Shown here piece by piece: positions 645 to 46,935 of a stretch of 57,027 bases of DNA. The DNA lies in assembly GCA_025774805.1 (NCBI GenBank), contig JALGZR010000082.1, forward strand, positions 1 to 57,027. Reading direction: 5' to 3'. Each line of letters starts with the position of its first letter. The first letter of the stretch is position 1. Origin of the DNA: a bacterium. Its GTDB lineage: Bacteria; ARS69. The position numbers were made by a program, and so were the translations under genes. Below the pieces are notes generated by a model. It saw only the letters and a program-made list of their open reading frames with translations, was not told the DNA's origin and made no database searches.

Positions 645-3191
645 TCACCGCAAGTGGACCACCCGGAGCGTCTTGCTGAATCGATCGGCCTCCATACGGG
701 AGAAGTAGACACCCGAGGCCACACGTCTTCCCCGAGCGTCCCGCCCGTCCCACACGACACTGTGTCTCCCGGCGTCCTGGAGCCGACCGTCGACGAGGAC
801 CCGGACCAAACGGCCGGTCACGTCGTAAATACTGAGATTCACTCGATTCGGGACGGGAAGCTCGTAGCGTAGGGTCGTCCTCACGCCGAACGGGTTCAGC
901 GTGTTCGGAAGAAGATCCAATTTCGCCGGGATCGAGAGAGCCAGAGCGACATTCGTGCCTTCAGACCCACAGCTCGTCACCAGGAGGTCGTCGGACGCCC
1001 CCTCGCTATGGTAGGCGACGACGGGCATCTCGCTCGCCAGCGCGAGGGAGACGTACCACGCCGCCCCGACGGGTTTGTCGATGATCTCGATCTGCCAAGC
1101 CGGGTCTTGCTTGAAGGCGTAGTTCAGAGTGTCTGTCGTGTCCGCATAGCACACGTACGGCCGGCCGAACTCGTCCAGGGCGAGTGCGAGATGCGACGTG
1201 GCATCGCCGCCATCGTCCACGGATTCGACCGGGTTCCAGGTATCGCCGGTCTTGGATACGTAGCGGACACGATGGAAGTTGTTCGGGTAGGCGATGTGGG
1301 GATCACCCTGAGCGTCGAGCACAAAGGCCTTGCCCCCCAGCCCCTCGCTGACGACGGGCTCGATAGTCCAGGTGGTCCCGTCCCAGCGCGCATATCGAAC
1401 CTCGAGACCCTCGCTGTAGACGATGTGGGGGAAGTCATTGGCGTCGAGCTCGAGAATCGTCTCGTCGGAAGCGTCGTCCAGCGTGGCGAATTCCCAGGCG
1501 CTCTCGATCTTGCGTGCGTACTTGAGCTTGCGGTTCGTGTGGTCGCGGTAGCTGATGTGGGGATCGCCCTGAGCGTCCAACTCGATTGACGTGAAGGTAC
1601 CGACATTCCCCGTGCTGTCGACGACCTCGATCTGCCAGCTCGCTCCGTCCCAGTGCGCGTACTTCAGATCGCCGACCGAGTTGTCGTAGTAGCTGACGTA
1701 CGGGTTGCCGGATCCGTTCAGCACGAGCGAACCGTACAAGCCCACGTCTCCCACGTTGTCCACGATTTCCGAGTGCCACCCTGTCTCGTTTCGGTAGGTG
1801 TACTTGAGGGCGGTGTTCGTCCGATCGTAGTAGACAATGTGGGGATCCTCGGCCTCGAGGACCAGCGAGACGTGCTCGCCGACGTCCCCGGTCGTGTCGA
1901 CACGTTCGAAAGTCCAAGAGTCACAGGTGATCGAAGCCGGCGGCAGCGGCGAATCCCCGATCACGGCCTCGACCTGCGAAAGTCCGGCCACCGTGGGATC
2001 CAGCACCGAGGTGGCCACCAAGGTGAAGAGATTCGAATCGCCTTCGGCCACGTCGGGGGGTACCTGCACCTCGACGAGTACGAGCTCGCCGGTCGCCGGC
2101 TCGACCGTCTCCACGCAGGTTAAGACCGCCGCCGGCCACGTCTCGGTCTGCAAGAGCCCGAAGTGGTACGCGTCCTTGTGCTCGCCGTCATTCGCGACGA
2201 GAAAGCCGAGCGTGAGCGGGCTGTCGGGCGCCGCCGTCGTGTCGGATGGAGCCTGGACGACCACGGCGAGCGGCCGTTCCACGGGGGGAAGGACCGGAGT
2301 CACCATCTCCGGCACGAACGTACCGTAGACGTCCCAGAGTCCTGTGGGAGAGGACTGACTCCAGGCTACGAAGAAGCTTTGTCCGCGATACGACTGGACG
2401 TCACCCCCTACCTGGGTAACGCTCGGGTTCGATTCCAATTCATCGGTGGCTGCGATCGGAATTGGATCCGGGTCCGAAAAGGCACGGTCCGGCGTGAACC
2501 GGATCCCGTAGATGTTGGCATCCCACCAGTCTTCCCAAAGGACCAGGTACTGCTCGCCGGCGAAGGCCACGTCGACGGTCATGCCCGCCTGCCAGCGATG
2601 CAGCGACGATATGATGAATGGAGCACCGGGCGCACCTGTGCGAGCGTCGACGAAGCGACCGTTGATCAACGATCCCCAGTCGTTGAATTCGTGCCACACG
2701 ACGAGGAAGCTGGTGCCGTCGAACGCGACCGCCGGCAACGAGTGCACGGGATTGTCGGGATCCGGGGCCGCGATGTTCACTACGGGTCCGCCCGCCGCCC
2801 CCGCTGCGGTGATCAACCGGGCACGGATGAGAGTGTTGGCGAGGCCACCGTTCGGGTCGTGGTCCTCCCACGCCACGAGAAACAGACCCGCCCCCGTGTC
2901 GGGATCGTATCCAGCCCCCACGGCGTGATTGCCTTGAGACGGTGGATCGAATGCCGGGGTGAAGAGGCCAGGGGCGACGGCGTTTACGGTCGCGGGTTCG
3001 GTCGAAGCATCCACCACCAGTCCGTTCAGCCAGTGCCCCCCGTTCCCGCCGACGTTCGAGCTCATGAAAACGACGAGGTAGGAGGCATTGACGGCGTCCA
3101 CCGCGGGCAGGTCCTCGCTGAGATTCGGGGTCGCCGTATCGAATAGGGCGAGCTGGCCGCCGTCAGGGTCGCTCCGCACCTGGATCCCCAC
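645..3191 (-). CDS. Secreted beta-propeller protein with C-terminal FlgD-Ig domain (probable C-terminal half of the M36 protease gene)
   Basis: This 848-codon frame starts at a GTG at 3191 and has no signal peptide of its own. The first ~300 residues are repeats of the type PAVAFDGTSFLVVWHE with GRFVDA. A conserved-repeat-like linker follows (~310-400), then about seven 40-50-residue repeats (DPHIVYYDRTN...LKYTYRN, NPYVSYYDNS, DPHISYRDHTN) typical of a propeller. The last ~85 residues are a FlgD-like Ig/sorting module (LNPFGVRTTLRYELP, IYDVTGRLVRVL, DARGRRVASGVYF). It is in the same frame as the upstream M36 protease, separated only by TAA at 3207-3209 and five codons. The repeat unit FLVVGAMMHED before the TAA continues as VVGIQVRSD after it, so one propeller blade is cut in two. 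I infer it is not an independent gene. Confidence 0.8.
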   Translation of the reverse strand: MGIQVRSDPDGGQLALFDTATPNLSEDLPAVDAVNASYLVVFMSSNVGGNGGHWLNGLVVDASTEPATVNAVAPGLFTPAFDPPSQGNHAVGAGYDPDTGAGLFLVAWEDHDPNGGLANTLIRARLITAAGAAGGPVVNIAAPDPDNPVHSLPAVAFDGTSFLVVWHEFNDWGSLINGRFVDARTGAPGAPFIISSLHRWQAGMTVDVAFAGEQYLVLWEDWWDANIYGIRFTPDRAFSDPDPIPIAATDELESNPSVTQVGGDVQSYRGQSFFVAWSQSSPTGLWDVYGTFVPEMVTPVLPPVERPLAVVVQAPSDTTAAPDSPLTLGFLVANDGEHKDAYHFGLLQTETWPAAVLTCVETVEPATGELVLVEVQVPPDVAEGDSNLFTLVATSVLDPTVAGLSQVEAVIGDSPLPPASITCDSWTFERVDTTGDVGEHVSLVLEAEDPHIVYYDRTNTALKYTYRNETGWHSEIVDNVGDVGLYGSLVLNGSGNPYVSYYDNSVGDLKYAHWDGASWQIEVVDSTGNVGTFTSIELDAQGDPHISYRDHTNRKLKYARKIESAWEFATLDDASDETILELDANDFPHIVYSEGLEVRYARWDGTTWTIEPVVSEGLGGKAFVLDAQGDPHIAYPNNFHRVRYVSKTGDTWNPVESVDDGGDATSHLALALDEFGRPYVCYADTTDTLNYAFKQDPAWQIEIIDKPVGAAWYVSLALASEMPVVAYHSEGASDDLLVTSCGSEGTNVALALSIPAKLDLLPNTLNPFGVRTTLRYELPVPNRVNLSIYDVTGRLVRVLVDGRLQDAGRHSVVWDGRDARGRRVASGVYFSRMEADRFSKTLRVVHLR

Positions 3192-13728: not shown

Positions 13729-14781
13729 TCAGCCGGAGGGTGCTCCCCCGGGGTGGCGGGCGGGTGCGATCCTCCGGCCCACCGCGGCGGCGATCGGTCT
13801 CAGCTCGTCCATCAGCTTCGTGAAACCCTCGAGGAAGAGGCTCTGCTCGCCGTCGCACAGCGCCTTCTCCGGAGCCGGATGGACCTCGATGATGAGCCCG
13901 TCCGCCCCCGCCGCCACGGCCGCTTTCGCCACCGCCGGGATGTAGTCCCGGATACCGGTGGCGTGACTGGGATCGACGATGACCGGCAGGTGACTGCTCT
14001 GCTTGATGACGGGAACGGCCGAGATGTCCAGCGTATTGCGTGTCGCCCTCTCGAAGGTGCGAATTCCCCGCTCGCACAGAATCACTTGATGGTTGCCGTT
14101 CGAGAAGACGTACTCCGCCGACAGAAGAAGCTCCTCGACGGTCGACATCATTCCCCGCTTCAGCAGCACGGGCTTACGAGCCCGGCCGACCGCCTCGAGA
14201 AGGGTGTAGTTCTGCATGTTCCGAGCGCCGACCTGCAGGATGTCCGCATACTCGCAGACCAGGGGGACGAGCTCGGGCGACATGACCTCCGTGACGATCG
14301 CGAGCCCCGTCTCCCGCTTGGCCTCCCGCAAGATCTCCAGGCCTTCCTGACCGAGGCCCTGGAAGCTGTAGGGAGAGGTCCGCGGCTTGAAGGCGCCTCC
14401 CCGCATCACGCGCGCACCGGCGTCGCGGACCGCCCGCGCGGTGGCGATCTGGATCTCGCGCGACTCCACCGAGCACGGCCCGGCCATCACGACGATCTCC
14501 TCACCGCCCACCGACGTACCGTTCACGCGGATCACGGTGGCCTCGGGCTGGAACTCCCGATTCACCAGCTTGAAGGACGTCGAGATGGGAGTGATCTTCT
14601 CGACCCCGGGCAGCTCCGAGATGTGCTCGAGCGGCGCCGTCTGCTTCGCACCGAGGACCCCGATCACCGTCTGCCGTGCTCCGTGGGAAGGACGCGCCTT
14701 GAATCCTCCGGTCTCGATTTCCCGAATCACGCAGCCGATCTCCGAGACCGACGCCCCCCGCTTCATGATCACGATCATCAT
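13729..14781 (-). CDS. aroF: 3-deoxy-7-phosphoheptulonate synthase (DAHP synthase, type I-beta)
   Basis: 350 residues. The first ~70 form a ferredoxin-like regulatory domain ([16 protein letters not shown]), then the barrel: [73 protein letters not shown], which supply the PEP, erythrose-4-phosphate and metal-binding residues. It condenses PEP with erythrose-4-phosphate, the first shikimate step. Last gene of the trp operon; start overlaps the trpA stop by 4 nt (ATGA). The N-terminal domain predicts feedback control, but the effector (Phe, Tyr, Trp or other) is not readable. Confidence 0.94.
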
Positions 14782-15590
14782 GCTCGAACCTCGTTGGACG
14801 GATTGATGGCCAGTTGGATCTCGTCCAGGAATCTCCGCACCTCGGCAACGGGGTTGCCGTCGGCGGCGGACTCCCGGACGATTCGGACCAGGGCGCTGCC
14901 GATGATCACGCCGTCGGCGATGCGCGTGGCCTCCTGGGCGAGCCGGCGACCGGATACCCCGAAGCCGACGTAGAGGGGGAGATCGGCGTGCCGGCGGACC
15001 TCACCGACGAAGGCGTCGAGGTCCGCGGCGCGGGCACTCCCGGCACCCGTCACCCCGGTGATCGAGACGAGGTAGAGAAAACCGCTCGCCTGGCCGGCGA
15101 TGCGGCGCACGCGATCGGTCGGGGACGTGCGGGCCACCAGATCGACGAGTGTCACTCCCTCGGCCGTGAGCGCGCGGCGAGCGTCGGCCGACTCCTCGAG
15201 CGGAACGTCCGGCAAAACGAGACCGGCCACGCCCGCCTTTCCGGCGCGGCGGGCGAATGTCTCCAGGCCCATCCGCAGGATGGGGTTGTAGTACCCCATC
15301 AGCACGATGGCGACATCGTTCTCGGCTTCGGCTCGGGCCGCGAGATCCAGGGTTCTCCCCAGCGTCATGCCGTGGGCCAGCGCGTGCTGCGAGGACTCCT
15401 GAATGGTGGGTCCATCGGCAATCGGGTCGGAGAACGGGACGCCGAGCTCGACGATCTCGCAGCCGGCCGCGCCGGCGGCCGCGATCAGAGACAGAGTCGT
15501 CTCCTCGTCGGGGTACCCCGCCGTGAAGTACGGCACGAGGCTCTTGCGACCGGAGCTCCGGAGGGTTTCGGCGGTTCGGGCGAGTCTCAT
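14778..15590 (-). CDS. trpA: Tryptophan synthase alpha subunit
   Basis: 270 residues, normal length. Motifs: [11 protein letters not shown], catalytic Glu in [18 protein letters not shown], catalytic Asp in [12 protein letters not shown], phosphate-binding [10 protein letters not shown] and [11 protein letters not shown]. Cleaves indole-3-glycerol phosphate to indole and glyceraldehyde-3-phosphate and passes indole to TrpB. The start overlaps the trpB stop by 4 nt, so synthesis is probably coupled to its partner. Confidence 0.96.
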
Positions 15591-16792
15591 GTTTTCGGGA
15601 ACTCCTCGATGCTCTCGACGTCCTTGTCGCCCCGACCGGAGAGATTGATGATCACGATTCCGCCTTCACCCGACTCGCCGCCCACGAGACGACGGGTGAA
15701 CGCGATCGCGTGGCTCGGCTCGAGAGCGGGCAGTATGCCCTCCTCACGGGCCAGGTCGCGGAATCCGGACAGGGCCTCGTGGTCGGGGACCCGCTCGTAC
15801 GAGACCCTGCTCGAGTCCTTCAGGAAGCTGTGCTCGGGCCCGACGCCGGGATAGTCGAGTCCCGGGGCGATGGAGTGGGCGGGGCGGACCTGACCGTCCT
15901 CGTCTTGCAGGAGGTAGCTGAGCGATCCGTGCAGGACTCCCGGAGCTCCCGCACAGAGCGCGGCCGAGTGTCCGGCCGCCGATCCGCCCGCCTCGACCCC
16001 GTACAACTTCACGTCGCGGTCCTTCACGAAGGCCGTGAAGATCCCCAGCGCGTTGGATCCCCCCCCGACGCAGGCCACGACGTGAGTCGGGAGGCGACCT
16101 TCGGCCGACAGGATCTGCCGACGCGCCTCCCGGCCGATGACCGCCTGGAAGTCCCGCACGATCGTCGGATAGGGGTGAGGACCGACCGTCGAGCCGAGCA
16201 CGTAGTGCGTCGTCTTGACGTGGGTGACCCAATCGCGGATCGCGTCGCTGGTCGCGTCCTTGAGAGTGCGGCTGCCCGAGGCGACCGGCCGGACCTCGGC
16301 CCCCAGCAGCTCCATCCGCAAGACGTTGGGGCGCTGCCGGTCGATGTCCAGCTCTCCCATGTACACCGTGCACTCCAGCCGCGCGTGCGCGGCGACCGTC
16401 GCGGTGGCCACCCCGTGCTGTCCTGCGCCGGTCTCGGCCACGAGTCGCCTCTTGCCCATTCGGCGGGCCAGCAGGGCCTGTCCCAGACAGTTGTTGATCT
16501 TGTGCGCGCCGGTATGATTGAGGTCTTCGCGCTTGAGGTAGATTCGGGCCTTCCCGCCGAAGCTCTCACCGAGGTTCGCCGCGAGGTAGAGCGGGGTCGG
16601 CCGACCGGCGTAGTGTTGCAGCAGCGCGTCCAGTTCGGTCCGGAAGACCTCGTCGGTTCGGGCCGCATCGTAGACCTCCTCGAGCTCCAGCAGGCACGGC
16701 ATCAGCGTTTCCGGGACGTACTGGCCTCCGTATTCTCCGAATCGGCCCTTCCGCCGTTCGGTGTCCCGGCTCGTATCATCCGCGATCGTCAC
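15587..16792 (-). CDS. trpB: Tryptophan synthase beta subunit
   Basis: 401 residues. N-terminal [20 protein letters not shown] lysine in [29 protein letters not shown]; phosphate cup [13 protein letters not shown]. These are type-1 TrpB signatures (partner of TrpA), not TrpB2. Condenses indole and serine to tryptophan. The start at 16792 overlaps trpC by 17 nt. Confidence 0.96.
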
Positions 16793-17558
16793 CGAGCAAC
16801 TCCTCGAGTTTGAGCCCCGGATCGGGGGCGTCCAAGAGCGCGCTCCCGATCAAGAAGGCGTCCATTCCGGCCTGCGTAAGCTCCCGGATCGTCTCGCGGC
16901 GGCTGATTCCGCTCTCGGCGACACGGAGAATGTCACCGGGAATCTCCCGCGCGAGCCTCCGGCAGGTGTCGATCGACACCTCCATGCTGTCGAGATTCCG
17001 GTTGTTGATGCCGATGATCCCGGCGCCCGCCGCCACCGCCCTCCGGAGGTCGGTCGCGTCGTGGCACTCGACCAGCGCGGCCGCTCCGAGCTCCCGAGAG
17101 CAGGCGAGCAGGCGGGACAGGTCTCCGTCCGAGAGAATGCGGACGATCAACAGGACGGCGTCCGCCCCCGCCGCGCGCGCCTCGACCAGTTGGTACGGAT
17201 CGACGAAGAAGTCCTTCGCCAGCACCGGCAGATTCACGGCCCGGCGCACGCGGGACACGTCGGCGAGACGCGTACCGAAGTGGGTCTCGTCCGTCACAAC
17301 GGAAATGGCGGCGGCGCCGGCCGCCGCGTACACCTCGGCGAGCTTCTCCGGCGCCGCCTGCTGGCGGAAGGCACCTCTCGAAGGCGACCGGCGCTTGATC
17401 TCCGCGATGATCCGGCCGCCGCCGGCGATGGCGGACGCGAAGTCCCGGACCGGTTGCGCGGCCGCCTCCTCGCGCAAGACGTCGAGGGGGCGCCGGTCCT
17501 TCTTGAGGGCGACTTCGGTTTCCTTCGCCTGCAACATCCGGGGGAGGAAGCCGCTCAT
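16776..17558 (-). CDS. trpC: Indole-3-glycerol-phosphate synthase
   Basis: 260 residues, a single-domain enzyme: [65 protein letters not shown]. Closes the indole ring from CdRP. It is not fused to TrpF, and no separate trpF is present in the operon or window. Start overlaps the trpD stop by 4 nt. Confidence 0.96.
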
Positions 17559-18583
17559 GACGCCTCCCCGGCGCGTCGGCTCGAGGCGCGACGGAGATCC
17601 TCGAGCAGTCGCTGCGCGTCGCCGCTTTCGATGGCCTCTCGCGCCAGGTCGACGCCGTGGGCGACGTCGCCGGCCCGGCCGGCCAGGACGGCCACGAATC
17701 CCGCGTTGAGCAGGACCGCGTCACTTCGGGGCCCTCCGTTGCCGTTCAGGACGTGCAGGATGTGAGCCGCGTTCTCGGCCGACGACCCGCCACCGATCTC
17801 GTCCAAGCCGGCCCGGCGGAGCCCCGCGTCCTCCGGAGTGAACTCGTAGGTGCGAACCCGGCCGTCGGACCACTCGCTGACCACGGTTTCGCCAGCGATG
17901 GAGACCTCGTCGGTGCCGTCCCGGCCGTGCACCACGAAGGCTCGCTCGGCCCCCAAATCGCCGAGCACCCGACACACCGGCTCGGTGAGGTCCGGGGCGA
18001 ACACGCCGAGGAGCTGGCGCTTCACGCCCGCGGGATTCGTCAACGGTCCGAGCAGGTTGAACACGGTCCGGATTCCCAGCTGCTTTCGCACCGGGGCGGC
18101 GTGCTTCATCGCCGGGTGATGCCGGGGCGCGAACAGGAACCCGATGCCGACCTCGTCGATGAGCCCGGCCACCTCTTCCGGTTCGAGCTCGATCCGCACG
18201 CCGAGCGCCTCCAGCACGTCGGCACTGCCGCAGGACGACGAGACCGCGCGATTGCCGTGCTTGGCGACGGGCACTCCCATGGCCGCCGCGACCAGGGCCG
18301 TGGCCGTCGAGATGTTGAAGGTCTGCCGGGAGTCGCCACCCGTGCCGCAGGTGTCGACCAGCCCCTCGCGCCCCGGGGAGATCGGCACCGCCTTTTCCCG
18401 CATGGCGGCGGCGAACCCCGCGATCTCCGTCACGGTTTCCCCCTTCATGCGCAGGGCGACCAGGACGGCGCCGATCTCGGCGCCGCTCAACTCTCCCGCC
18501 ATGATGGCGGACATCAGGTCGTGCGCCTCCGAGTTCTTCAAGTCCTCCCGCCGCAGCAGCTTTCCGAGTGTGGCGGTGGTCAT
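17555..18583 (-). CDS. trpD: Anthranilate phosphoribosyltransferase
   Basis: 342 residues. LSGAEIGAVLVALRMKGET at the N-terminal helical domain; VDTCGTGGDSRQTFNIST (PRPP loop); KHGNRAVSSSCGSADVLEAL; GIGFLFAPRHHPAMKH; LLGPLTNPA. Transfers the phosphoribosyl group from PRPP to anthranilate. Not fused to TrpG, which precedes it with a 4-nt ATGA overlap. Confidence 0.96.
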   Translation of the reverse strand: MTTATLGKLLRREDLKNSEAHDLMSAIMAGELSGAEIGAVLVALRMKGETVTEIAGFAAAMREKAVPISPGREGLVDTCGTGGDSRQTFNISTATALVAAAMGVPVAKHGNRAVSSSCGSADVLEALGVRIELEPEEVAGLIDEVGIGFLFAPRHHPAMKHAAPVRKQLGIRTVFNLLGPLTNPAGVKRQLLGVFAPDLTEPVCRVLGDLGAERAFVVHGRDGTDEVSIAGETVVSEWSDGRVRTYEFTPEDAGLRRAGLDEIGGGSSAENAAHILHVLNGNGGPRSDAVLLNAGFVAVLAGRAGDVAHGVDLAREAIESGDAQRLLEDLRRASSRRAGEAS

Positions 18584-19167
18584 GGTCCGTTTCCGCCGTT
18601 GCGCGTCGAGTCCAGGAAGTTGGCCAGGAGCTTGCCGCCTTCCGGAGTCAGGATCGATTCCGGGTGGAATTGCACGCCCTCCACGAGCCCGGTCTTGGCG
18701 CGAACCCCCATGATCTCACTGTCGGACGTGTAGGCCGAAACCTCGAGAGCATCCGGCAGGTTCTCCTCGCGCACGATCAGGGAGTGGTAGCGGGTGGCCG
18801 AGAACGGATTCGACAGGCCCCCGTAAATCGTCTTCCCGTCGTGATAGATGTTCGAGACCTTGCCGTGCATCACCCGGGGCGAACGGTCGATTCGGCCGCC
18901 GTAGACCTCGACGATGCACTGGTGTCCCAGGCAGATTCCGAGCACGGGGATCTTTTCCAGGAAGAAGGCGAGGACGTCGACGGCGTTCCCGGTTTCCTTC
19001 GGGGTCCCCGGACCGGGCGAGAGGATCAGGGATTCGGGGGCCAGGGCCCTCGCTTCCGCGACCGTGATCTGGTCATTGCGCCGGACCCGGACCTCCGCGC
19101 CGAGCTCTCCCAAGGCCTGCACGACGTTGAACGTGAAGGAATCGTAATTGTCGATCAGAAGGTGCAT
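18580..19167 (-). CDS. trpG: Anthranilate synthase glutamine amidotransferase subunit
   Basis: 195 residues from ATG 19167 (MHLLIDNYDSFTFNVVQ), two bases after the trpE stop. Longer in-frame starts would read into trpE and give a nonsense N-terminus. Class-I amidotransferase signatures: LILSPGPGTPKE, nucleophile Cys in GICLGHQCIVE, ATRYHSLIV, and His/Glu in GVQFHPESIL. Supplies ammonia to TrpE; may also serve p-aminobenzoate synthase, as in organisms with a single amphibolic glutaminase. Confidence 0.95.
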   Translation of the reverse strand: MHLLIDNYDSFTFNVVQALGELGAEVRVRRNDQITVAEARALAPESLILSPGPGTPKETGNAVDVLAFFLEKIPVLGICLGHQCIVEVYGGRIDRSPRVMHGKVSNIYHDGKTIYGGLSNPFSATRYHSLIVREENLPDALEVSAYTSDSEIMGVRAKTGLVEGVQFHPESILTPEGGKLLANFLDSTRNGGNGP

Positions 19168-19169
19168 GG

Positions 19170-20642
19170 TCAGCTCCCCCCCTCGGCAATGGTGACGGCG
19201 CGGATCAGGGCCCGGATCTTGTTGAGTGTCTCTTGATACTCGAAGGCCGGATCGGAGTCGGAGACGATTCCTGCCCCGGCCTGCGCGAAGTAACGAGATC
19301 CCTTCATGATGAGCGTCCGGATGGTGATGCACATGTCCATGTCACCCTGCCGGCCGAAATAGCCGACCGCGCCGGCGTAGGGACCGCGCGTCAGGCCCTC
19401 GAGGTCGCGGATGATCTCCATGGCCCGGATCTTCGGGGCGCCGGTGACGGTGCCGGCCGGAAAGACGGCCCGCAGGAGATCGAACATGTCCAGCTCCGGG
19501 CGCAACCTTCCCGCCAGCCGGGAGACGATGTGCATCACGTGAGAGTACTTCTCGACCTGCATGAACGACTCGGGAGCGACGCTTCCGATCTCGCAGACCC
19601 TTCCCAGGTCGTTCCGGCCGAGATCCACGAGCATGAGGTGCTCGGCGCGCTCCTTCTCGTTCGCGAGCAGCTCCATCTCGAGATTGCCGTCGGCGACCGG
19701 GGTATCGCCGCGCGGCCGGGTACCGGCGATCGGGCAGAGGGTCACCCGGCGATCCTCGAGCTTGACCAGGGCTTCGGGCGAGGATCCGATGGTCTGGAAG
19801 CCGCCGAAGTCGATGTAGAACATGTAGGGTGAGGGATTGAGGATTCGCAGGGCGCGATAGATCTGAAACGGACTCGTGGTCGTCTCGCCGCTCAAGCGCT
19901 GCGACAGAACGATTTGGAAGGCATCCCCGGCGAGGATGTGCTCCTTGGCGCGCGCGACGCGGTCGCAGAACTCCGATTCGGTCAGGTTGGACACCGGAGG
20001 GGAGGCGGTGTCCGTACGGGGACCGCGGGCGGGCTGCGGCAGGGGTCGCGAGAGCGCCTCGAGGATCGTCCCGATCTCGGAGCGTGCCGCCTCGTAGGCC
20101 TCCTCGGGCGGTCCCTCGGGGGGGAGAGTCAGGATCTCGATCTCGCACTTCACGTGATCGATGACGGCGAGCGTGCGCGGGTAGAGGAACTGGTAGTCGG
20201 GCAGGTCGAGGGTGTCCACCCCGGGACGGCGAACGCGCTCGAAATAGCGCACGATGTCATAGGAGATGTAGCCCACGGCGCCGGCGAAGGGACCGGGCAG
20301 CTCTTCGGTCAGCAGATCGTCGCCGTTGGCGAGGGCCGCCCGGACGGGCCCGAACGGATCGGCGGGGTCGACCTCCTCCTCTCGAGCGTCGCCGTTTCGA
20401 TCGACCGTGACTTTCTCATCGTGGAGCCGGACGACCGTGTCGGGAGAGAGGCCGATGAACGAGTAGCGACCGACCTGAATGCCCCGCTCGATGCTCTCGA
20501 GCAGGAAGACGGCCCCGTGCGGTCGAAGTTTCAGGAACGCGGAGACCGGGGTCTCGAGATCGGCCGGGATTCGCTCGCGGAGGGGCGCGCGCCTGCCCTG
20601 ATCGACGACATCCCGGTAGCGTCCCAGCGACGGTGAAGGCAT
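19170..20642 (-). CDS. trpE: Anthranilate synthase component I
   Basis: I place the start at ATG 20642 (MPSPSLGRYRDVV), seven bases after GGAAGGAG; an open frame extends upstream to 20696 but runs into the attenuator T-tract. 490 residues. Tryptophan feedback site LLES in VFLLESIERGIQVGRYSF; chorismate-binding core IGSSPEALVKLEDR, IAGTRPRGDTP, ELLANEKERAEHLMLVDLG, FPAGTVTGAPKIRAME, GPYAGAVGYFG. Makes anthranilate from chorismate with TrpG. Controlled at two levels: the conserved LLES motif predicts inhibition by Trp, and the leader predicts attenuation. Confidence 0.95.
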   Translation of the reverse strand: MPSPSLGRYRDVVDQGRRAPLRERIPADLETPVSAFLKLRPHGAVFLLESIERGIQVGRYSFIGLSPDTVVRLHDEKVTVDRNGDAREEEVDPADPFGPVRAALANGDDLLTEELPGPFAGAVGYISYDIVRYFERVRRPGVDTLDLPDYQFLYPRTLAVIDHVKCEIEILTLPPEGPPEEAYEAARSEIGTILEALSRPLPQPARGPRTDTASPPVSNLTESEFCDRVARAKEHILAGDAFQIVLSQRLSGETTTSPFQIYRALRILNPSPYMFYIDFGGFQTIGSSPEALVKLEDRRVTLCPIAGTRPRGDTPVADGNLEMELLANEKERAEHLMLVDLGRNDLGRVCEIGSVAPESFMQVEKYSHVMHIVSRLAGRLRPELDMFDLLRAVFPAGTVTGAPKIRAMEIIRDLEGLTRGPYAGAVGYFGRQGDMDMCITIRTLIMKGSRYFAQAGAGIVSDSDPAFEYQETLNKIRALIRAVTIAEGGS

Positions 20643-20694
20643 CGGGTGCTCCTTCCGTACCCGAACGGACAAAAAGACGGACAAGAGGACGGAC

Positions 20695-20726
20695 AAAAAA
20701 GACCCGCCATCCGGGGATGGCGGGTC
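20695..20726 (-). terminator. trp attenuator (intrinsic terminator in the trpE leader)
   Basis: On the minus strand, GACCCGCCATC (20726-20716) pairs perfectly with GATGGCGGGTC (20711-20701) around a CCCG loop, followed by six T (20700-20695). It sits 53 nt before the trpE start, so it can only act as a regulated terminator. The 5' arm and loop (CCATCCCCGG, 20720-20711) are also fully complementary to CCGGGGATGG at 20791-20782 in the leader, which provides the competing antiterminator. Confidence 0.88.
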
Positions 20727-20749
20727 TGTCGGCTTGATTCCCCTGCAAA

Positions 20750-20872
20750 CTAACCGGAATCAACGAATCGCCCAGAACCTACCATCCCCGGGTCGACGGA
20801 ATACCATCGCCACCATCGCCACCGCAGGGTCGGGGTGCAGGAGTCGGCAGTCGATTCGCGGTTTTCTGACAA
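20750..20872 (-). CDS. trpL: trp operon leader peptide, Trp-rich (WRWWRW)
   Basis: A short frame ending at TAG 20752-20750 encodes four Trp codons in six (TGG CGA TGG TGG CGA TGG, 20821-20804). The last Trp codon ends 13 nt before the antiterminator strand at 20791-20782, the distance at which a ribosome stalled for charged tRNA-Trp would leave that strand free. The start is uncertain: the frame is open further upstream; TTG 20872 has GAGAAAGG about nine bases before it and would give 40 residues. A segment CACCCCG (20837-20831) just before the Trp codons could pair with the 20782-20791 strand as the protector hairpin. The reading of this as trpL rests on position and Trp codons, not on homology. 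Confidence 0.78.
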   Translation of the reverse strand: MSENRESTADSCTPTLRWRWWRWYSVDPGMVGSGRFVDSG

Positions 20873-20950
20873 AGAAGTCGGCCTTTCTCGAGCCAGACGG
20901 TCTCGTTCGTGACGGCCCGAACCACCTGTGTTCGGGACCAGGATAGAACA

Positions 20951-20980
20951 AGCATATCCGAGTTCGGTCCGAAATGTCAA
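20951..20980 (-). promoter_or_regulatory. trp operon promoter
   Basis: On the minus strand, TTGACA (20980-20975), an 18-nt spacer, and TATGCT (20956-20951). Transcription would start near 20944, about 70 nt before the leader peptide and 300 nt before trpE. It lies in the short gap after the upstream aminotransferase gene. Confidence 0.7.
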
Positions 20981-21015
20981 CTCCATGCTATAGGCCGGGT
21001 CGGCATCTCCGGTTC

Positions 21016-22203
21016 CTACTTCGTGCTCTTGGCCGCCTGGGCCGCGATGGCGGTGACCGCCTCGATGGCCGCCTCGATCTCCTCGGCCGTGTTCGACGGA
21101 CCGACGCTCATTCGCACCGTTCCCCGCGGGGCCGTGCCCATCTGCTCGTGTATCAGCGGGGCGCACTGCAGCCCGGTGCGGGTCGCGATGTCGTGGTCCA
21201 CGTCGAGAAACGTGCCGACGTCGGAGGGGTCGCGACCGTTGATGGTGAAGCCGAGGACCGGCAGGCGGTTCTCGAGGCTGCGCGTTCCGTGGAGGGTGAG
21301 GCCCTGGATTCCGGACAGGCCGGCCTGCAGCCGGGAGAAGAGCTCCATCTCGTGCCGGTAGATCTCGTCGATGCCCCTCTCCTCGAGATACTGCTGCGCG
21401 AAGTGGAGACCGACGATGCCGAGGACGTTCACCGTGCCGACCTCCAGCCGGTACGGATACTCCTCGAGGTGGAAGGGGTGGGCCGATCGCACGCCGGTCC
21501 CGCCGTAGCGCGTGGGTTCGATTACCAGGTCTTCCGCCACGCAGCAGCCTCCGATGCCCGTCGGGCCGAGCAACGACTTGTGCCCGGTAAAGGCCACGGC
21601 GTCGAGGCACATCTCCCGCATGTCGATGGGCACGACACCCGCCGTCTGGGCGACGTCCACGACGAACCGGATGCCCCGCTCCCGGCAGAGCCGCCCGATC
21701 TCGGCGACCGGCTGGATGGTTCCGATGACGTTGGAGCCGTGGTTGACGACCACGAGCGTGGTCTCCGGTCGAAACGCCCGCTCGATCTCCCGGGGGTCGA
21801 CCGTGCCCTGCCCGTCGCACCGCACGTAGTCGACGGTGATCCGCCTCTGCGCCGCCAGGTGGTTCAGGGGTCGGATGACCGAGTTGTGCTCCACCGTGGT
21901 GGAGACGACGTGGTCGCCCTCGCCCACCAAGCCCTGAATCAGGATGTTGAGCGCATCCGAGGCGTTGTACGCGAAGATGAGCCGCCGGGGATCGGGGCCG
22001 CCGAAGAAGCGGGTCAGCTGCTTACGGGTGGTCTCCACGAGATCGCCGCCGACGAGGCAGAGGTCGTACCCCGACCGGCCGGGATTCACGCCGTACTGCT
22101 GGAAGACCTCCAGCATCGGCTCCAGGATCTCCCGCGGCTTCGGATAGACGGTGGCGGCGTTGTCCAGATAGATGATGCGGTCCGGTTTCTGCGGAAGTTC
22201 CAT
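21016..22203 (-). CDS. Class-V PLP aminotransferase / cysteine desulfurase-like enzyme
   Basis: 395 residues from ATG 22203 (MELPQKPDRIIYLDNAATVYPKP); the upstream start at 22254 lacks conserved sequence. PLP lysine in VAFTGHKSLLGPTG, with ASDALNILIQ, TTVEHNSVIRPL and VVNHGSNVIGT as in NifS/SufS folds. The C-terminal RTGLQCAPLIHEQMGT resembles the active Cys loop of the TIGR01977 desulfurase group. It probably removes sulfur from cysteine as a persulfide. The gene just upstream encodes a DsrC-type sulfur carrier, a plausible acceptor. Substrate is inferred from family, not proven; related fold-type I lyases are an alternative. Confidence 0.85.
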   Translation of the reverse strand: MELPQKPDRIIYLDNAATVYPKPREILEPMLEVFQQYGVNPGRSGYDLCLVGGDLVETTRKQLTRFFGGPDPRRLIFAYNASDALNILIQGLVGEGDHVVSTTVEHNSVIRPLNHLAAQRRITVDYVRCDGQGTVDPREIERAFRPETTLVVVNHGSNVIGTIQPVAEIGRLCRERGIRFVVDVAQTAGVVPIDMREMCLDAVAFTGHKSLLGPTGIGGCCVAEDLVIEPTRYGGTGVRSAHPFHLEEYPYRLEVGTVNVLGIVGLHFAQQYLEERGIDEIYRHEMELFSRLQAGLSGIQGLTLHGTRSLENRLPVLGFTINGRDPSDVGTFLDVDHDIATRTGLQCAPLIHEQMGTAPRGTVRMSVGPSNTAEEIEAAIEAVTAIAAQAAKSTK

Positions 22204-22429
22204 GTCGGCTCGACCTCGATCCGGAAAGCTACCGTCCCCGACGACCTGTCGCAAGTGCCCCCGCGTCGGACCCCGGAGGACCCCGATCCGGGGGCGGCTG
22301 AACCCCCGGACCCGCCCCTTCTCGACCGGTTGCCGAGTCCGAGGAGCGCGCGGAGCCGCCGGCGTGCGGATCGAGGATCGCCGCCAGGCAGGCAGTTCGC
22401 CCCCCGAAGTCGCACGCGGTCGACATCAC

Positions 22430-40419: not shown

Positions 40420-41874
40420 CTATCCACTCCCGGCCATGCTGACGGTCGATCGAGGAGTGAGACGCGCCAGCGCATGATCCAGATCCGCGATGATGTCGTC
40501 CGGGTGCTCACCCCCGACGCACAGGCGGACCAGGTTCGGCGGGATGTGGGCGAGCTTGCGCCCTTCCTCGCCCTGCTGCTGGTGGGTGGAGATCGCGGGG
40601 ATCGTGGCCACGCTCTTGATCCGTCCCAGGTCGGTGGCCCGCCAGATGCGCTGGAGGCCGTCGAAGAAGACCCGCGCCTTCTCGGCGCCGCCCTTGATGC
40701 AGAAGCCCATGAGGTGTCCGTAGCGATTGACCGGCCTCCCGTACTGCTCGTCGTACTCGGCATCCACCAACCACAGGTACCTGCTGGCCAGCTCGTGAAG
40801 GGGATGCTCGGGGAGACCGAGGTACTCCACGCTCTCCACCCTGGGGTGATCGCGCAGGAACTTCGCCACCTTCATCGTGCTTCGACTCATCAGGTCGATC
40901 TTGCTGCGCAGGGTCCGCATGTCGTTGAGCGTCATCACCGCCTGCACGGGGTGCAGGTTCGGCCCCATGTCGCGGTTCGGCAGGAACTTCACGTAGTTGG
41001 CGAAGTTCTCCCTCATCTTCGGGTTGTCGATGTTCGTCGTGATCCCCGCGCGGCTGATCACCGCGCCGGCCATCCCGAAGCCGCTGGAGGTGAGGGTCTT
41101 CGTGGCCGACTGCACGACGATGTCCGCGCCGTGACAGATGGGGCGCAGGAGCGCGGGCGTGGCCACGGTGTTGTCCACGATGAGAGGCAGGTTGTGGCTG
41201 TGGGCCAGATCCGCCACCTGGGCGATGTCGAAGAACCCGAGCTGGGGATTGCTGGGGAGCTCGCCGTAGAGAAACCGTGTGTTCCTGTCGATCTTCCTCG
41301 CCCACTCGTCGATGTCGGTCGGGTCCTCGATCCAGCGGCACTCGATTCCGCGCTCGTCCATGAGCCGGATGCTGAACTGCTGGAACGTGCCCCCGTAGCA
41401 CTGCGCGGTCGCCAGGAAGTTGCGCTCCTCGTGGACGTGCTGCTCGGCGTGAACCAGGAAGGGCTGCACGGCGGTCATGATCGCGGCCATCCCCGAGCTC
41501 GTGGAGCAGCAGGACGTCTCGCCGTCGAATCCGTAACCTTCCAGCAGCGCCAGGACCCACTCGTAATAGTACGTCGAGGGGTTGGCGATTCGCGAATAGC
41601 ACCAGGTCGGGATCAGATAGGCCAGCGCGGCCTCCATCTCGTCGGTGTCGCGATACGCCTGCGACGAGCTCATGAAGACCGGCTCGATGATGGCGCCCTG
41701 ATAGTCCTCGATGGCGTCCTGCACGGTGTAGAGGCCGTGGACGGCGATCGTGTCGAACTTCCACTTCTTGACGACTTCGCGGATGTACTTGGACCGCTGG
41801 GCGAGGTAGGCGTTGTTCTTGTCGACGTAGGCCTGGATACCGGGACTCAAACAGTCTCCATCGTGCCCGGACAT
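40420..41874 (-). CDS. Cys/Met-metabolism PLP enzyme (O-acetylhomoserine sulfhydrylase/MetY-like)
   Basis: 484 residues from ATG 41874, seven bases after AGAGGAGA. PLP lysine in DIVVQSATKTLTSSGFGMAG, IVDNTVATPALLRP, YGELPSNPQLGFFD, CYSRIANPSTYYYEWVLALLEG and SSGMAAIMTA are Cys/Met-metabolism family signatures. Slightly longer than typical (400-430) owing to an N-terminal helix and insertions. Family members either add sulfide or cysteine to activated homoserine or split such products. The divergent homoserine dehydrogenase gene supports a role in homoserine-to-methionine flow. Exact activity (MetY, MetB, MetC, MdeA) not resolved. Confidence 0.85.
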   Translation of the reverse strand: MSGHDGDCLSPGIQAYVDKNNAYLAQRSKYIREVVKKWKFDTIAVHGLYTVQDAIEDYQGAIIEPVFMSSSQAYRDTDEMEAALAYLIPTWCYSRIANPSTYYYEWVLALLEGYGFDGETSCCSTSSGMAAIMTAVQPFLVHAEQHVHEERNFLATAQCYGGTFQQFSIRLMDERGIECRWIEDPTDIDEWARKIDRNTRFLYGELPSNPQLGFFDIAQVADLAHSHNLPLIVDNTVATPALLRPICHGADIVVQSATKTLTSSGFGMAGAVISRAGITTNIDNPKMRENFANYVKFLPNRDMGPNLHPVQAVMTLNDMRTLRSKIDLMSRSTMKVAKFLRDHPRVESVEYLGLPEHPLHELASRYLWLVDAEYDEQYGRPVNRYGHLMGFCIKGGAEKARVFFDGLQRIWRATDLGRIKSVATIPAISTHQQQGEEGRKLAHIPPNLVRLCVGGEHPDDIIADLDHALARLTPRSTVSMAGSG

Positions 41875-42138
41875 GGTCGTCTCCTCTGTGTCATGAACGT
41901 GCTTCATCCTTCTTTGACCCTCCACTCGAAAATACCTCCTAATCCACGAAAAACCAAGGCCTTATCGCCCGCAGTCGAGCCGCGTTTCGCCCCCCGGCAG
42001 GCTTTACAAACCCCCCGATCTGCCGGAAGCTCGGCACCATCGAAGGAAACCGCCACCGGCCGCCGGCCCCGAGGCGGCGGTGCCGCGGCCTCCCTGCGGC
42101 CCCGAGGAAACGGAGCCCCGGGTCACCGGCGGTCGATC

Positions 42139-42172
42139 GGGCGGCCCCTCGGGAGCGTTGCTCCGGCCGCCC
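42139..42172 (+). promoter_or_regulatory. Stable hairpin just upstream of the homoserine dehydrogenase ribosome site
   Basis: GGGCGGCC (42139-42146) pairs with GGCCGCCC (42165-42172), with an inner GGAGC/GCTCC stem. It ends 2-3 nt before the GGAAGGAG of the next gene, so it could modulate translation or be a T-less terminator. I compared the whole 41875-42190 leader with SAM and SAH riboswitch cores and found no match. Confidence 0.4.
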
Positions 42173-42190
42173 ACGGAAGGAGTTCCACCG

Positions 42191-44602
42191 ATGGAATTGC
42201 GATTGGTGCTGGCCGGCTTCGGGACGGTCGGACAGGGGCTCGCCGAGCTCCTGCTCGAGCGAGGACGGATCCCGGAAGGTCTCGAGATCCGGGTCGTGGG
42301 CATCTCCGACAAGCTCAAGGGCAGCCTGCACGCGCCGGGAGGAATCGATCTGGCCGGCGCCCTGGTGCGGGCCGAGGCCGGGAGGCAGATCTCGGAGGCG
42401 GGCGACGCGTTCGACGGCGACGCCCTGCAGCTCATCCACACGGCCGATGCCGACATGCTCGTCGAGGCGACGTACACCGACCTCGAGACCGCGGAGCCGG
42501 CGACCTCCCACGTGCGCGCCGCGCTGGAGAAGGGCATGCACGTGACGACGATGAACAAGGGACCGATCGCGCTCCATTTCCACGAGCTGTCGGCCCTGGC
42601 CCGCGAACGGGGCGTGGGGCTCTTCTACGAAGGAACCGTGATGAGCGGCACGCCGATGCTCAACGTGATCCGGGAGACCCTGCGAGGATCGCGGATCACG
42701 GAGATGCGAGGGATCCTGAACGGCACCACGAACTACATCCTGACGCGGATGGAGGAGGGTCGCGAGTACGCGGACGCCCTCGCCAAGGCGCAGGAGCTGG
42801 GCTACGCAGAAGCGGTACCGGACGCCGACGTCCTCGGCTGGGACGCGCTGGCGAAGGTGACCATCCTCGCGAACGCGGTCTTCGGAGCGAAGGCGAAACC
42901 GAAGGACTTCCCCTGCCGGGGGATCACCGAGATCACCGCCGACGCCATCGCCGACGCGAAGGCCAGGGGCAAGCGGTTCAAGCTGATCGGGCGCGTGTGG
43001 CGCGACGGCGACAGCGTGCGCGGGAGCGTGGAGCCGCAAGAGGTGGATCTCAGCCACCCCCTCGCCGGCGTCATGGGCGCGACGAACGCGATGACCATCA
43101 CCACGGACACCCTGGGAGACGTCACCGTCGTGGGTCCGGGCGCGGGCCGGCGGCGACATCCTTCACGTGGGGGCCAGACGATGAAGATGCTTCTCGACGG
43201 CCGGTGGGTCGACCAGGACCGGAAAATCGAGGTCCGGGATCCGTTCGACGACTCTTTGATCGACACGGTGCCGGGCGCCTCGGCGGAGGACGTGGAGACG
43301 GCTCTCGCGGCCGCGGTGCGCGGCTTCGAGATCACCCGGAGAATGACGGTCCACGAGCGGGCGCAAATCCTCTACCGAACGGCGAACATCCTCGAGGCGG
43401 AGCAGGAGGAGTTTGCCACGATGATCGCGCGGGAAGGCTCCAAGACGATCCGCGAGGCGAGGAAGGAGGCCTCCCGCGCCGTCAACACGATGATCGTCGC
43501 GGCGGAGGAGTCCAAACGCATCCTCGGCGAGACGATTCCGTTCGACTCCTTCCCTGGGGGTGAGAAGCGGCGCGGCTACTACTACCGGTTCCCCATCGGA
43601 GTCGTGCTGGCGATCACGCCGTTCAATGATCCGTTGAACCTCGTCGCCCACAAGCTGGGGCCGGCGTTCGCCGCCGGGAACTCCGTCGTGCTGAAGCCCG
43701 CGACCGTGACGCCGCTCTCGGCCCTCAAGCTCGTGGAGGCGATGATCGAGGCGGGGATGCCGCCGGCCGCCATGCAGGTGATCACGGGAGTGGGCTCCGA
43801 GATCGGCGATCCGCTCGTCGCCGACGAGCGGGTCCGCATGATCTCCTTCACCGGGGGCGTGGACGCCGGGAAGCGCATCGCGAGTCTCGCCGGAATCAAG
43901 AAGATCGGCATGGAGCTGGGCTCCAACTCGCCCGTGATCGTCTGGAAGGACGCGGATCTCTCTCTCGCCGTGGAGTCCTGCGTGTCCGGAGCCTTCTGGG
44001 CCGCGGGGCAGAACTGCATCGGCGTGCAGCGGCTCCTCGTCCACCGCGATCTCTACGACCCGTTCCGGGAGCGGTTCGTGGAGCAGACGAAGGCCTACAA
44101 GATCGGGAACAAGCTCGACGAGGCGACGGACATGGGACCCATGATCACGGAGGCCGAGGCGAGACGCGTCGAGGAGTGGGTGGGGAGGGCGAAGGCCGAT
44201 GGCGCCACCGTGCTGGCCGGAGGGGGGCGGAAGGGTGCTCTCATGGAGCCCACGGTGCTGGAGAACGTCCCGGCGACGACGGTCATCCACTGCGAGGAGG
44301 TCTTCGGACCGACGGTCAACCTCTATCCCGTCGACGACCTGGACGCCGCTATTTCGGAGGCGAACTCGCTCCCTTACGGTCTCCTGACCGCCGTCTTCAC
44401 GAGCAATGTCGAGGTGGCCTTCAAGACCGCCTACGAGCTGGACTGCGGGGGCGTGATGATCAACGACTCCACCGACTACCGGCTCGACTCCATGCCGTTC
44501 GGCGGCGTCAAGTATTCGGGTCTGGGCCGGGAGGGGCTCAAGTTCTCGCTGCAGGAGATGACGGAGCCGAAGGTGGTGTGCTTCAACTTGGCAGGGGTCT
44601 AG
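42191..44602 (+). CDS. Homoserine dehydrogenase in frame with an NAD(P)-dependent aldehyde dehydrogenase
   Basis: A single 803-residue frame from ATG 42191 (GGAAGGAG upstream). Residues 1-~322 are homoserine dehydrogenase: LVLAGFGTVGQGLAELL, TTMNKGPIA, YEGTVMSGTPMLN, GILNGTTNYILT, VPDADVLGWDALAKVTILAN, ending GDVTVVGPGAG. The usual C-terminal ~15 residues are replaced by RRRHPSRGGQT. From ATG 43181 (MKMLLDGRWVDQD) to the end is a full-length aldehyde dehydrogenase: NSVVLKPATVTPLSALK, Glu in IGMELGSNSPVI, catalytic Cys in AGQNCIGVQ, CEEVFGPTVNLYPV. In the alternative frame the first gene would stop at TGA 43182-43184, overlapping ATG 43181 as ATGA. So either a real fusion or two coupled genes joined by a one-base change near 43140-43160. 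The aldehyde dehydrogenase substrate is unknown; aspartate or succinate semialdehyde would fit the context. Confidence 0.8.
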   Translation: MELRLVLAGFGTVGQGLAELLLERGRIPEGLEIRVVGISDKLKGSLHAPGGIDLAGALVRAEAGRQISEAGDAFDGDALQLIHTADADMLVEATYTDLETAEPATSHVRAALEKGMHVTTMNKGPIALHFHELSALARERGVGLFYEGTVMSGTPMLNVIRETLRGSRITEMRGILNGTTNYILTRMEEGREYADALAKAQELGYAEAVPDADVLGWDALAKVTILANAVFGAKAKPKDFPCRGITEITADAIADAKARGKRFKLIGRVWRDGDSVRGSVEPQEVDLSHPLAGVMGATNAMTITTDTLGDVTVVGPGAGRRRHPSRGGQTMKMLLDGRWVDQDRKIEVRDPFDDSLIDTVPGASAEDVETALAAAVRGFEITRRMTVHERAQILYRTANILEAEQEEFATMIAREGSKTIREARKEASRAVNTMIVAAEESKRILGETIPFDSFPGGEKRRGYYYRFPIGVVLAITPFNDPLNLVAHKLGPAFAAGNSVVLKPATVTPLSALKLVEAMIEAGMPPAAMQVITGVGSEIGDPLVADERVRMISFTGGVDAGKRIASLAGIKKIGMELGSNSPVIVWKDADLSLAVESCVSGAFWAAGQNCIGVQRLLVHRDLYDPFRERFVEQTKAYKIGNKLDEATDMGPMITEAEARRVEEWVGRAKADGATVLAGGGRKGALMEPTVLENVPATTVIHCEEVFGPTVNLYPVDDLDAAISEANSLPYGLLTAVFTSNVEVAFKTAYELDCGGVMINDSTDYRLDSMPFGGVKYSGLGREGLKFSLQEMTEPKVVCFNLAGV

Positions 44603-45945: not shown

Positions 45946-46935
45946 ATGAAGGCGATCGTTCAGAACAGGTACGGCTCACCGGATGTCTTCGAGCTCGAGG
46001 ACGTCCCCAAGCCGGTGGCCAAGGATGACGATCTGTTGGTGCGCGTTCACGCCGCTGCGCTCCACGCGGGTGACTACTTCATCATGAGAGGCGTGCCGTA
46101 CGCGGTGCGCTTGGTCGCAGGGTGGCCCCGACCGAAGAATCGTGTTCCGGGCTACGACGTGGCGGGATACGTCGAGTCGGCCGGGAAGAACGTCGAGCGG
46201 TTTCAACCGGGGGACGAGGTGTTCGGCACGTGCGAGGGCACCTGCGCCGAGTACGTGTGCGCCGGAGCGAGCAACTTCGAGTCGAGGCCGTCCAACCTCA
46301 CGCTCGAGCAAGCCGCGGCCGTACCGACGTCTGCACTCACTGCCCTCATCGGTCTTCGTGACGCGGGAGGGGTGAAGCCGGGGCAGAAGGTCTTGATCAA
46401 CGGTGCGTCGGGAGGCGTGGGTACGTTCGCCGTGCAGATCGCCAAGGAGCTCGGAGTGGAGGTGACCGGCGTATGCAGCACGAGGAACGTGGACCTGATC
46501 CGATCGATCGGCGCGGATCATGTCATCGATTACACGCAGGAGGATTTCACGCGAAGTGGGCTGCGCTACGATCTCATCCTCGATCAAGTGGCGAACCACT
46601 CGCCGGCGGACTGTCGACGCGCCCTCACCCCCCGGGGGATCCACATACCGAACAGCGGCAACAGAGGGCTGGGCTACATCGCGAAGGCGCTCGTGTCGTC
46701 GATGTTCGTGCGCCAGCGGGTGCGTCTGTTCGTCGCGAATCCGAAGAAAGGGGACCTGCTCGCTCTAAAGGAGCTCATCGAGGCCGGCAAGGTGACTCCG
46801 GTCATCGACAGGACGTACCCGCTGAGCGAGACCCCGGAGGCCTTCCGGTATCTGAGTGAAGGTCACGCCCGAGGAAAAGTAGTCATCACGGTCGAAGGTG
46901 ACTCCGCCGGCCCGCGAGGGCCCCGGGCCGTCTAA
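45946..46935 (+). CDS. Quinone-oxidoreductase-like MDR enzyme
   Basis: 329 residues from ATG 45946 (MKAIVQNRYGSPDVFELEDV); a GTG at 45919 would add nine residues. Zinc-free medium-chain dehydrogenase: GYDVAGYVESAGKNV, AAAVPTSALTALIGL, nucleotide-binding LINGASGGVGTFAVQIAKELG, IGADHVIDYTQEDF, ARGKVVITV. Probably an NADPH-dependent reductase of quinones or alpha,beta-unsaturated carbonyls. Its TAA overlaps the stop of the convergent kinase gene by 4 nt. Confidence 0.9.
   Translation: MKAIVQNRYGSPDVFELEDVPKPVAKDDDLLVRVHAAALHAGDYFIMRGVPYAVRLVAGWPRPKNRVPGYDVAGYVESAGKNVERFQPGDEVFGTCEGTCAEYVCAGASNFESRPSNLTLEQAAAVPTSALTALIGLRDAGGVKPGQKVLINGASGGVGTFAVQIAKELGVEVTGVCSTRNVDLIRSIGADHVIDYTQEDFTRSGLRYDLILDQVANHSPADCRRALTPRGIHIPNSGNRGLGYIAKALVSSMFVRQRVRLFVANPKKGDLLALKELIEAGKVTPVIDRTYPLSETPEAFRYLSEGHARGKVVITVEGDSAGPRGPRAV

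Follow-up and report, generated by a model that had tools for sequence, protein, structure and literature searches.

A trp operon preceded by a candidate attenuator

The window, i.e., the whole 57,027-nucleotide stretch of DNA analyzed here, carries a trpE-G-D-C-B-A-aroF operon on its minus strand. The operon starts with trpE, encoding anthranilate synthase component I (19170 to 20642, the latter position being the A of its ATG; Pfam PF00425 and PF04715). This is followed by trpG, the glutamine amidotransferase component (18580 to 19167; PF00117, with the start codon inferred from sequence), trpD (17555 to 18583; PF00591 and PF02885), trpC (16776 to 17558; PF00218), and trpB (15587 to 16792; PF00291, a PALP family gene whose role is assigned by its position in the operon). 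Last come trpA (14778 to 15590; NCBIfam TIGR00262) and an aroF-like DAHP synthase gene (13729 to 14781; NCBIfam TIGR01361 and NF006421). The ends of most genes in this run overlap. Upstream of trpE, the parts of a putative attenuator lie in order on the same strand. A preliminary description, made from the sequence alone, had placed these ordered parts at 20642 to 20980, and the coordinates were correct, with the promoter, the Trp codon cluster, strand 2, and the terminator all located there.

The leader has a sigma-70-like promoter, TTGACA-18-TATGCT (20951 to 20980, minus strand), which scores 10/12; our search found this one promoter in the leader versus 0.2 expected in shuffles. A Shine-Dalgarno-like GAGAAAGG (20882 to 20889, minus strand) may serve the leader peptide ORF, which runs for 40 codons on the minus strand from TTG at 20872 to TAG at 20750 and ends in LRWRWWRWYSVDPGMVGSGRFVDSG before the stop codon. 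TTG is the only usable start of this ORF, a point absent from the preliminary description. The ORF contains the predicted WRWWRW cluster, with four Trp in six codons, encoded by TGG CGA TGG TGG CGA TGG (20821 to 20804); such a density of Trp occurs at only two spots in the six frames of the window, one of which is the leader. We infer that the leader ORF is translated and that the leader is controlled by the level of Trp.

The candidate strands follow on the minus strand. Strand 2, the antiterminator CCGGGGATGG (20791 to 20782), starts 13 nt beyond the Trp cluster. It is perfectly complementary over 10 nt to the core of strand 3, CCATCCCCGG (20720 to 20711), which comprises the 5' arm of the terminator, its loop, and the first base of the 3' arm. 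The full complementarity claimed for this 10-nt antiterminator strand was thus borne out. The intrinsic terminator formed by strands 3 and 4 (20695 to 20727) is a hairpin, AGACCCGCCATC-CCCG-GATGGCGGGTCT (20727 to 20700), followed by a T run. It is strong, with a stem of 12 bp where the preliminary description had reported 11. The leader stop codon, whose position was not part of that description, comes after the antiterminator strand, at a distance of 54 nt from the last Trp codon. A tentative strand 1, CCTGCACCCCGACC (20828 to 20841, minus strand), is the predicted partner of strand 2 when the leader is folded at full length. Calling the attenuator complete was therefore slightly too strong: the promoter, leader, 2:3 pairing, and terminator are in place, while the 1:2 pairing is poorly supported in the window.

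The leader is conserved in a Krumholzibacteriota TrpE clade

TrpE searches found close relatives (about 57 to 71% identity) in the phylum of genome G029, Candidatus Krumholzibacteriota, and in public metagenome-assembled genomes (MAGs). In the TrpE tree, the window falls in a clade of 27 rows (SH-aLRT 98), and its sister there is G133 (97), whose leader ends in MSYRWWRWCAYHPRMVGSGRIADSG before the stop codon, nearly identical to the tail of the window leader. We compared 27 distinct leaders, i.e., the window and 26 loci with enough upstream sequence, all from Candidatus Krumholzibacteriota or unplaced MAGs; the leader ORF of L119 and the terminator of L117 were set by eye before the final pairing test.

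A Trp codon cluster and a terminator are present in all 27 leaders. The preliminary description had held that relatives lacking Trp codons or compensatory changes would speak against attenuation. In fact, 25 of the 27 leaders have at least three Trp in eight codons and the other two (L118 and L121) have two, and compensatory changes between strands 2 and 3 are present. Terminator energies range from -12.7 to -28.4 kcal/mol, and a promoter scoring at least 9/12 lies upstream of 25/27 leaders versus 4% of shuffled sequences. In most leaders, strand 2 begins 12 to 20 nt downstream of the final Trp codon, a distance that would just clear the footprint of a stalled ribosome. The stop codon is typically found beyond strand 2, 45 to 60 nt from that Trp codon and 21 to 41 nt before the terminator. 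In L115, L117, and L129, it is inside or adjoining strand 2, as in E. coli. Among trpE loci of other lineages chosen as near relatives by genome (L005 to L032), only 1 of 28 has a leader candidate, a weak one.

Strands 2 and 3 co-evolve

For the pairing tests, a stretch of 37 nt starting 3 nt after the Trp codons represented strand 2, and the 5' arm and loop of the terminator represented strand 3. The mean energy of native 2:3 duplexes is -20.35 kcal/mol versus -16.39 kcal/mol when strands are swapped between loci, and 0/50,000 permutations reach the native mean; additive composition effects cancel in this test, and the permutations are not fully independent since the loci are related. An equally long control region preceding the Trp codons shows no such effect (p = 0.96). 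In the window itself, the 2:3 duplex reaches -28.6 kcal/mol, matched by 0/100 dinucleotide shuffles of the strand 2 region.

The pairing is kept while its letters vary widely among loci, e.g., GGATGG/CCATCC, GGATAG/CTATCC, GGTGG/CCACC, and GACAGCGG/CCGCTGTC. Curated 2:3 cores, picked by eye to show the pairing, contain 178 Watson-Crick pairs, 5 G-U pairs, and 2 mismatches. One leader, L117, combines a perfect 10-bp 2:3 match with an interrupted terminator stem, which argues that 2:3 is maintained apart from 3:4, under its own selection. At the level of sequence, then, strands 2 and 3 co-evolve through many compensatory changes, and the parts of the leader, their order, and their conservation are likewise established.

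A predicted ribosome-mediated attenuator

We are highly confident that this leader controls the trp operon by ribosome-mediated attenuation of transcription. In the proposed mechanism, RNA polymerase would start at the promoter at 20951 to 20980, and a ribosome would translate the 40-codon leader. With charged Trp-tRNA scarce, the ribosome would stall on the WRWWRW codons and leave strand 2 free to pair with strand 3; the terminator could then not form, and trpEGDCBA-aroF would be transcribed. With plentiful Trp, the ribosome would pass over strand 2 to the stop codon, so that strand 2 would be either masked by it or engaged with strand 1. Strands 3 and 4 would then pair, and transcription would end upstream of trpE.

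When the stalled state is modeled by masking strand 1 and leaving out strand 4, as before its synthesis, 24/27 leaders are predicted to form 6 bp or more of 2:3. The window leader then forms 16 2:3 pairs enclosing a hairpin, TTGATTCC...GGAATCAA (20734 to 20763, minus strand), which lies within the antiterminator loop and has the stop codon in its own loop. The full-length window leader folds into the 12-bp terminator and a 1:2 structure, with no 2:3 pairs. The full-length fold favors 2:3 over the terminator in 8/27 leaders, in a static calculation that ignores kinetics.

What keeps strand 2 off strand 3 when Trp is plentiful is the step that we infer rather than read from the sequence. Instead of a 1:2 hairpin like that of E. 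coli, the block might come mainly from the ribosome itself, which would occupy strand 2 as well as the stretch leading up to the terminator, an explanation that we find plausible, if on balance somewhat doubtful. The ORF includes strand 2, and most leaders place the stop codon well beyond this strand, as described above. In addition, 2:3 beats 1:2 in many folds: even when strand 1 is free, 17/27 leaders, the window included, favor 2:3 as long as strand 4 has yet to be transcribed. This suggests that many loci have a weak 1:2 arm and that the block may rest more on ribosome occupancy; an untranslated leader with such a weak arm might read through. However, 1:2 duplexes are more stable natively than after swapping between loci (-32.7 versus -29.6 kcal/mol, 0/50,000 permutations), and the three leaders with a stop codon at strand 2 resemble E. 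coli. The 1:2 pairing is weak in folds of the window and of many relatives, though natively better across the set overall.

Returning to the attenuator as a whole, a different trp switch could in principle act on the same terminator, i.e., a T-box, binding of a TRAP-like protein, or a metabolite riboswitch. T-box and TRAP are used by trp operons of Bacillota, and our scan for Trp runs flagged putative T-box cores like TGGTGGTACCGCGG in trpE loci of Bacillaceae. However, Rfam, RF00513 (Trp_leader) and T-box included, gave no match in the whole window at the gathering score and none in 14 related loci at E values up to 1; a permissive search of the window leader returned only chance-level matches to unrelated families. 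Neither the T-box that the preliminary description had named as an alternative nor any other Rfam family was found. Furthermore, the Trp codons are kept as codons while the flanking RNA is not conserved, and these codons together with the paired changes favor sensing by a ribosome over TRAP. We consider another switch very improbable. The same holds for a constitutive or simple intrinsic terminator preceded by a chance Trp-rich ORF: intrinsic terminators are common and the window ORF starts with TTG, but a Trp cluster, a terminator, and co-varying 2:3 strands occur together in 27/27 leaders and the leader is nearly absent from other trpE loci.

As a side observation, TGGTGGTACCGCGG reads WWYRG when taken as a peptide motif, and such putative T-box cores appear as false Trp leaders at Bacillaceae trpE loci L055, L064, L069, and L081.

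Relation to known attenuators

The leader peptide of E. coli trpL has 14 codons; that of the window has 40. Both leaders have, before trpE, a promoter, a short Trp-codon ORF, and a mutually exclusive antiterminator and terminator that share strand 3. In contrast to the enteric trpL (RF00513), the window does not match the RF00513 model, its stop codon is downstream of strand 2, strands 2 and 3 are separated by 61 nt with a hairpin inside, and the evidence for 1:2 is weak. In 2005, trp attenuators were predicted upstream of trp operons in Actinobacteria (Corynebacterium and Streptomyces), which represent the same mechanism outside the Proteobacteria in a lineage unrelated to ours, likened by mechanism and not by sequence (PMC1262725). 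A 2010 paper noted that, before its own case in Bacillota, leader peptide systems had not been shown beyond Proteobacteria and Actinobacteria (PMC2965389). That case, His leader peptides before hisS identified comparatively, is likewise outside the classical phyla and differs from ours in amino acid, gene, and phylum (PMC2965389).

The open papers that we searched contained nothing relevant on attenuation in Krumholzibacteriota or Bacteroidetes. Very probably, then, the window represents a known mechanism in a lineage for which we found no earlier description, with some differences in layout. This places ribosome-mediated attenuation, with strong comparative support, in a candidate phylum of uncultured bacteria, and bears on whether attenuation is old or arose several times. 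It would also imply tight coupling of transcription and translation in Krumholzibacteriota-type bacteria. Separately, some trpE loci of Desulfofervidaceae, Desulfurellaceae, and a deltaproteobacterial MAG (L039, L047, L057, and L076) also have upstream ORFs for WWW leaders with a terminator.

Origin of the trp operon in the host genome

The preliminary description had spoken of an FCB-like candidate lineage, which calls for refinement: the operon belongs to the Krumholzibacteriota TrpE clade, whereas the host genome belongs to a different small phylum, in whose other members the leader is absent. The rpoB of the host is 82 to 88% identical to those of its own family (G002 to G004) and about 64% identical to those of Krumholzibacteriota. 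Its TrpE is only 45 to 46% identical to the TrpE of its family, which branch elsewhere in the tree. In G002 and G004, trpE is directly behind another reading frame and has no leader; a family search found no second full trpE in the host. A cysteine desulfurase-like gene adjoining the leader is also nearer Krumholzibacteriota (53% versus 34% identity). Overall, the region from 13729 to 22254, which holds the trp operon and this gene, is probably derived from Krumholzibacteriota, by horizontal transfer or in a chimeric contig.

The host assembly has an estimated contamination of 5.06%. A misbinned contig as the whole answer was ruled out: the same contig carries, at a distance of 9 kb, a KAS III gene that shares 78% identity with that of G004, and positions 40479 to 44590 are matched by neighboring stretches of G002 (contig C2, 161429 to 165230). 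With these matches to the host family, only the trp region of the contig looks foreign. Since trpE in the host family is of another type and lacks a leader, the operon and its switch were probably acquired together, and the simplest reading of the sequences is transfer from a Krumholzibacteriota-like donor. A chimeric contig or misassembly is a possible source of the trp region. Under horizontal transfer, the regulator is self-contained and apparently moved with the operon, so that no regulatory protein would be needed in the new host.

His-rich leaders in Krumholzibacteriota

Attenuation is probably not confined to trp in Krumholzibacteriota, as suggested by hisG loci of the phylum. Four of five (L143, L144, L145, and L146, in four genomes) have a His-rich leader, HHHGHHHH and similar, and a terminator-like hairpin before the operon; one example is MSFRSQHHHGHHHHPRSGVGSLV, followed by the stop codon. 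The readable sequence of the fifth shows no His leader. A his attenuator upstream of hisG is thus probable in this phylum. In its broadest form, our interpretation is that leader peptide attenuation arose, or was retained, as a general control for amino acid operons of Krumholzibacteriota (trp and his), with the stop codon downstream of the antiterminator, and that a complete trp operon crossed phyla into the host genome together with its attenuator, as a single self-regulating cassette; we regard this combined claim as tentative, at slightly under even chances. A search for hisG (TIGR00070) found it in only 5 of 78 genomes in the phylum, so that His synthesis may have been lost widely or the enzyme may be divergent. 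Loci of leuA were few in the phylum.

Elsewhere, the window encodes a secreted protein with a weak tail resembling a type IX secretion sorting signal and two large Ser/Thr protein kinases (645 to 3191, minus strand; 46932 to 49796, minus strand; and 50396 to 53110, plus strand).
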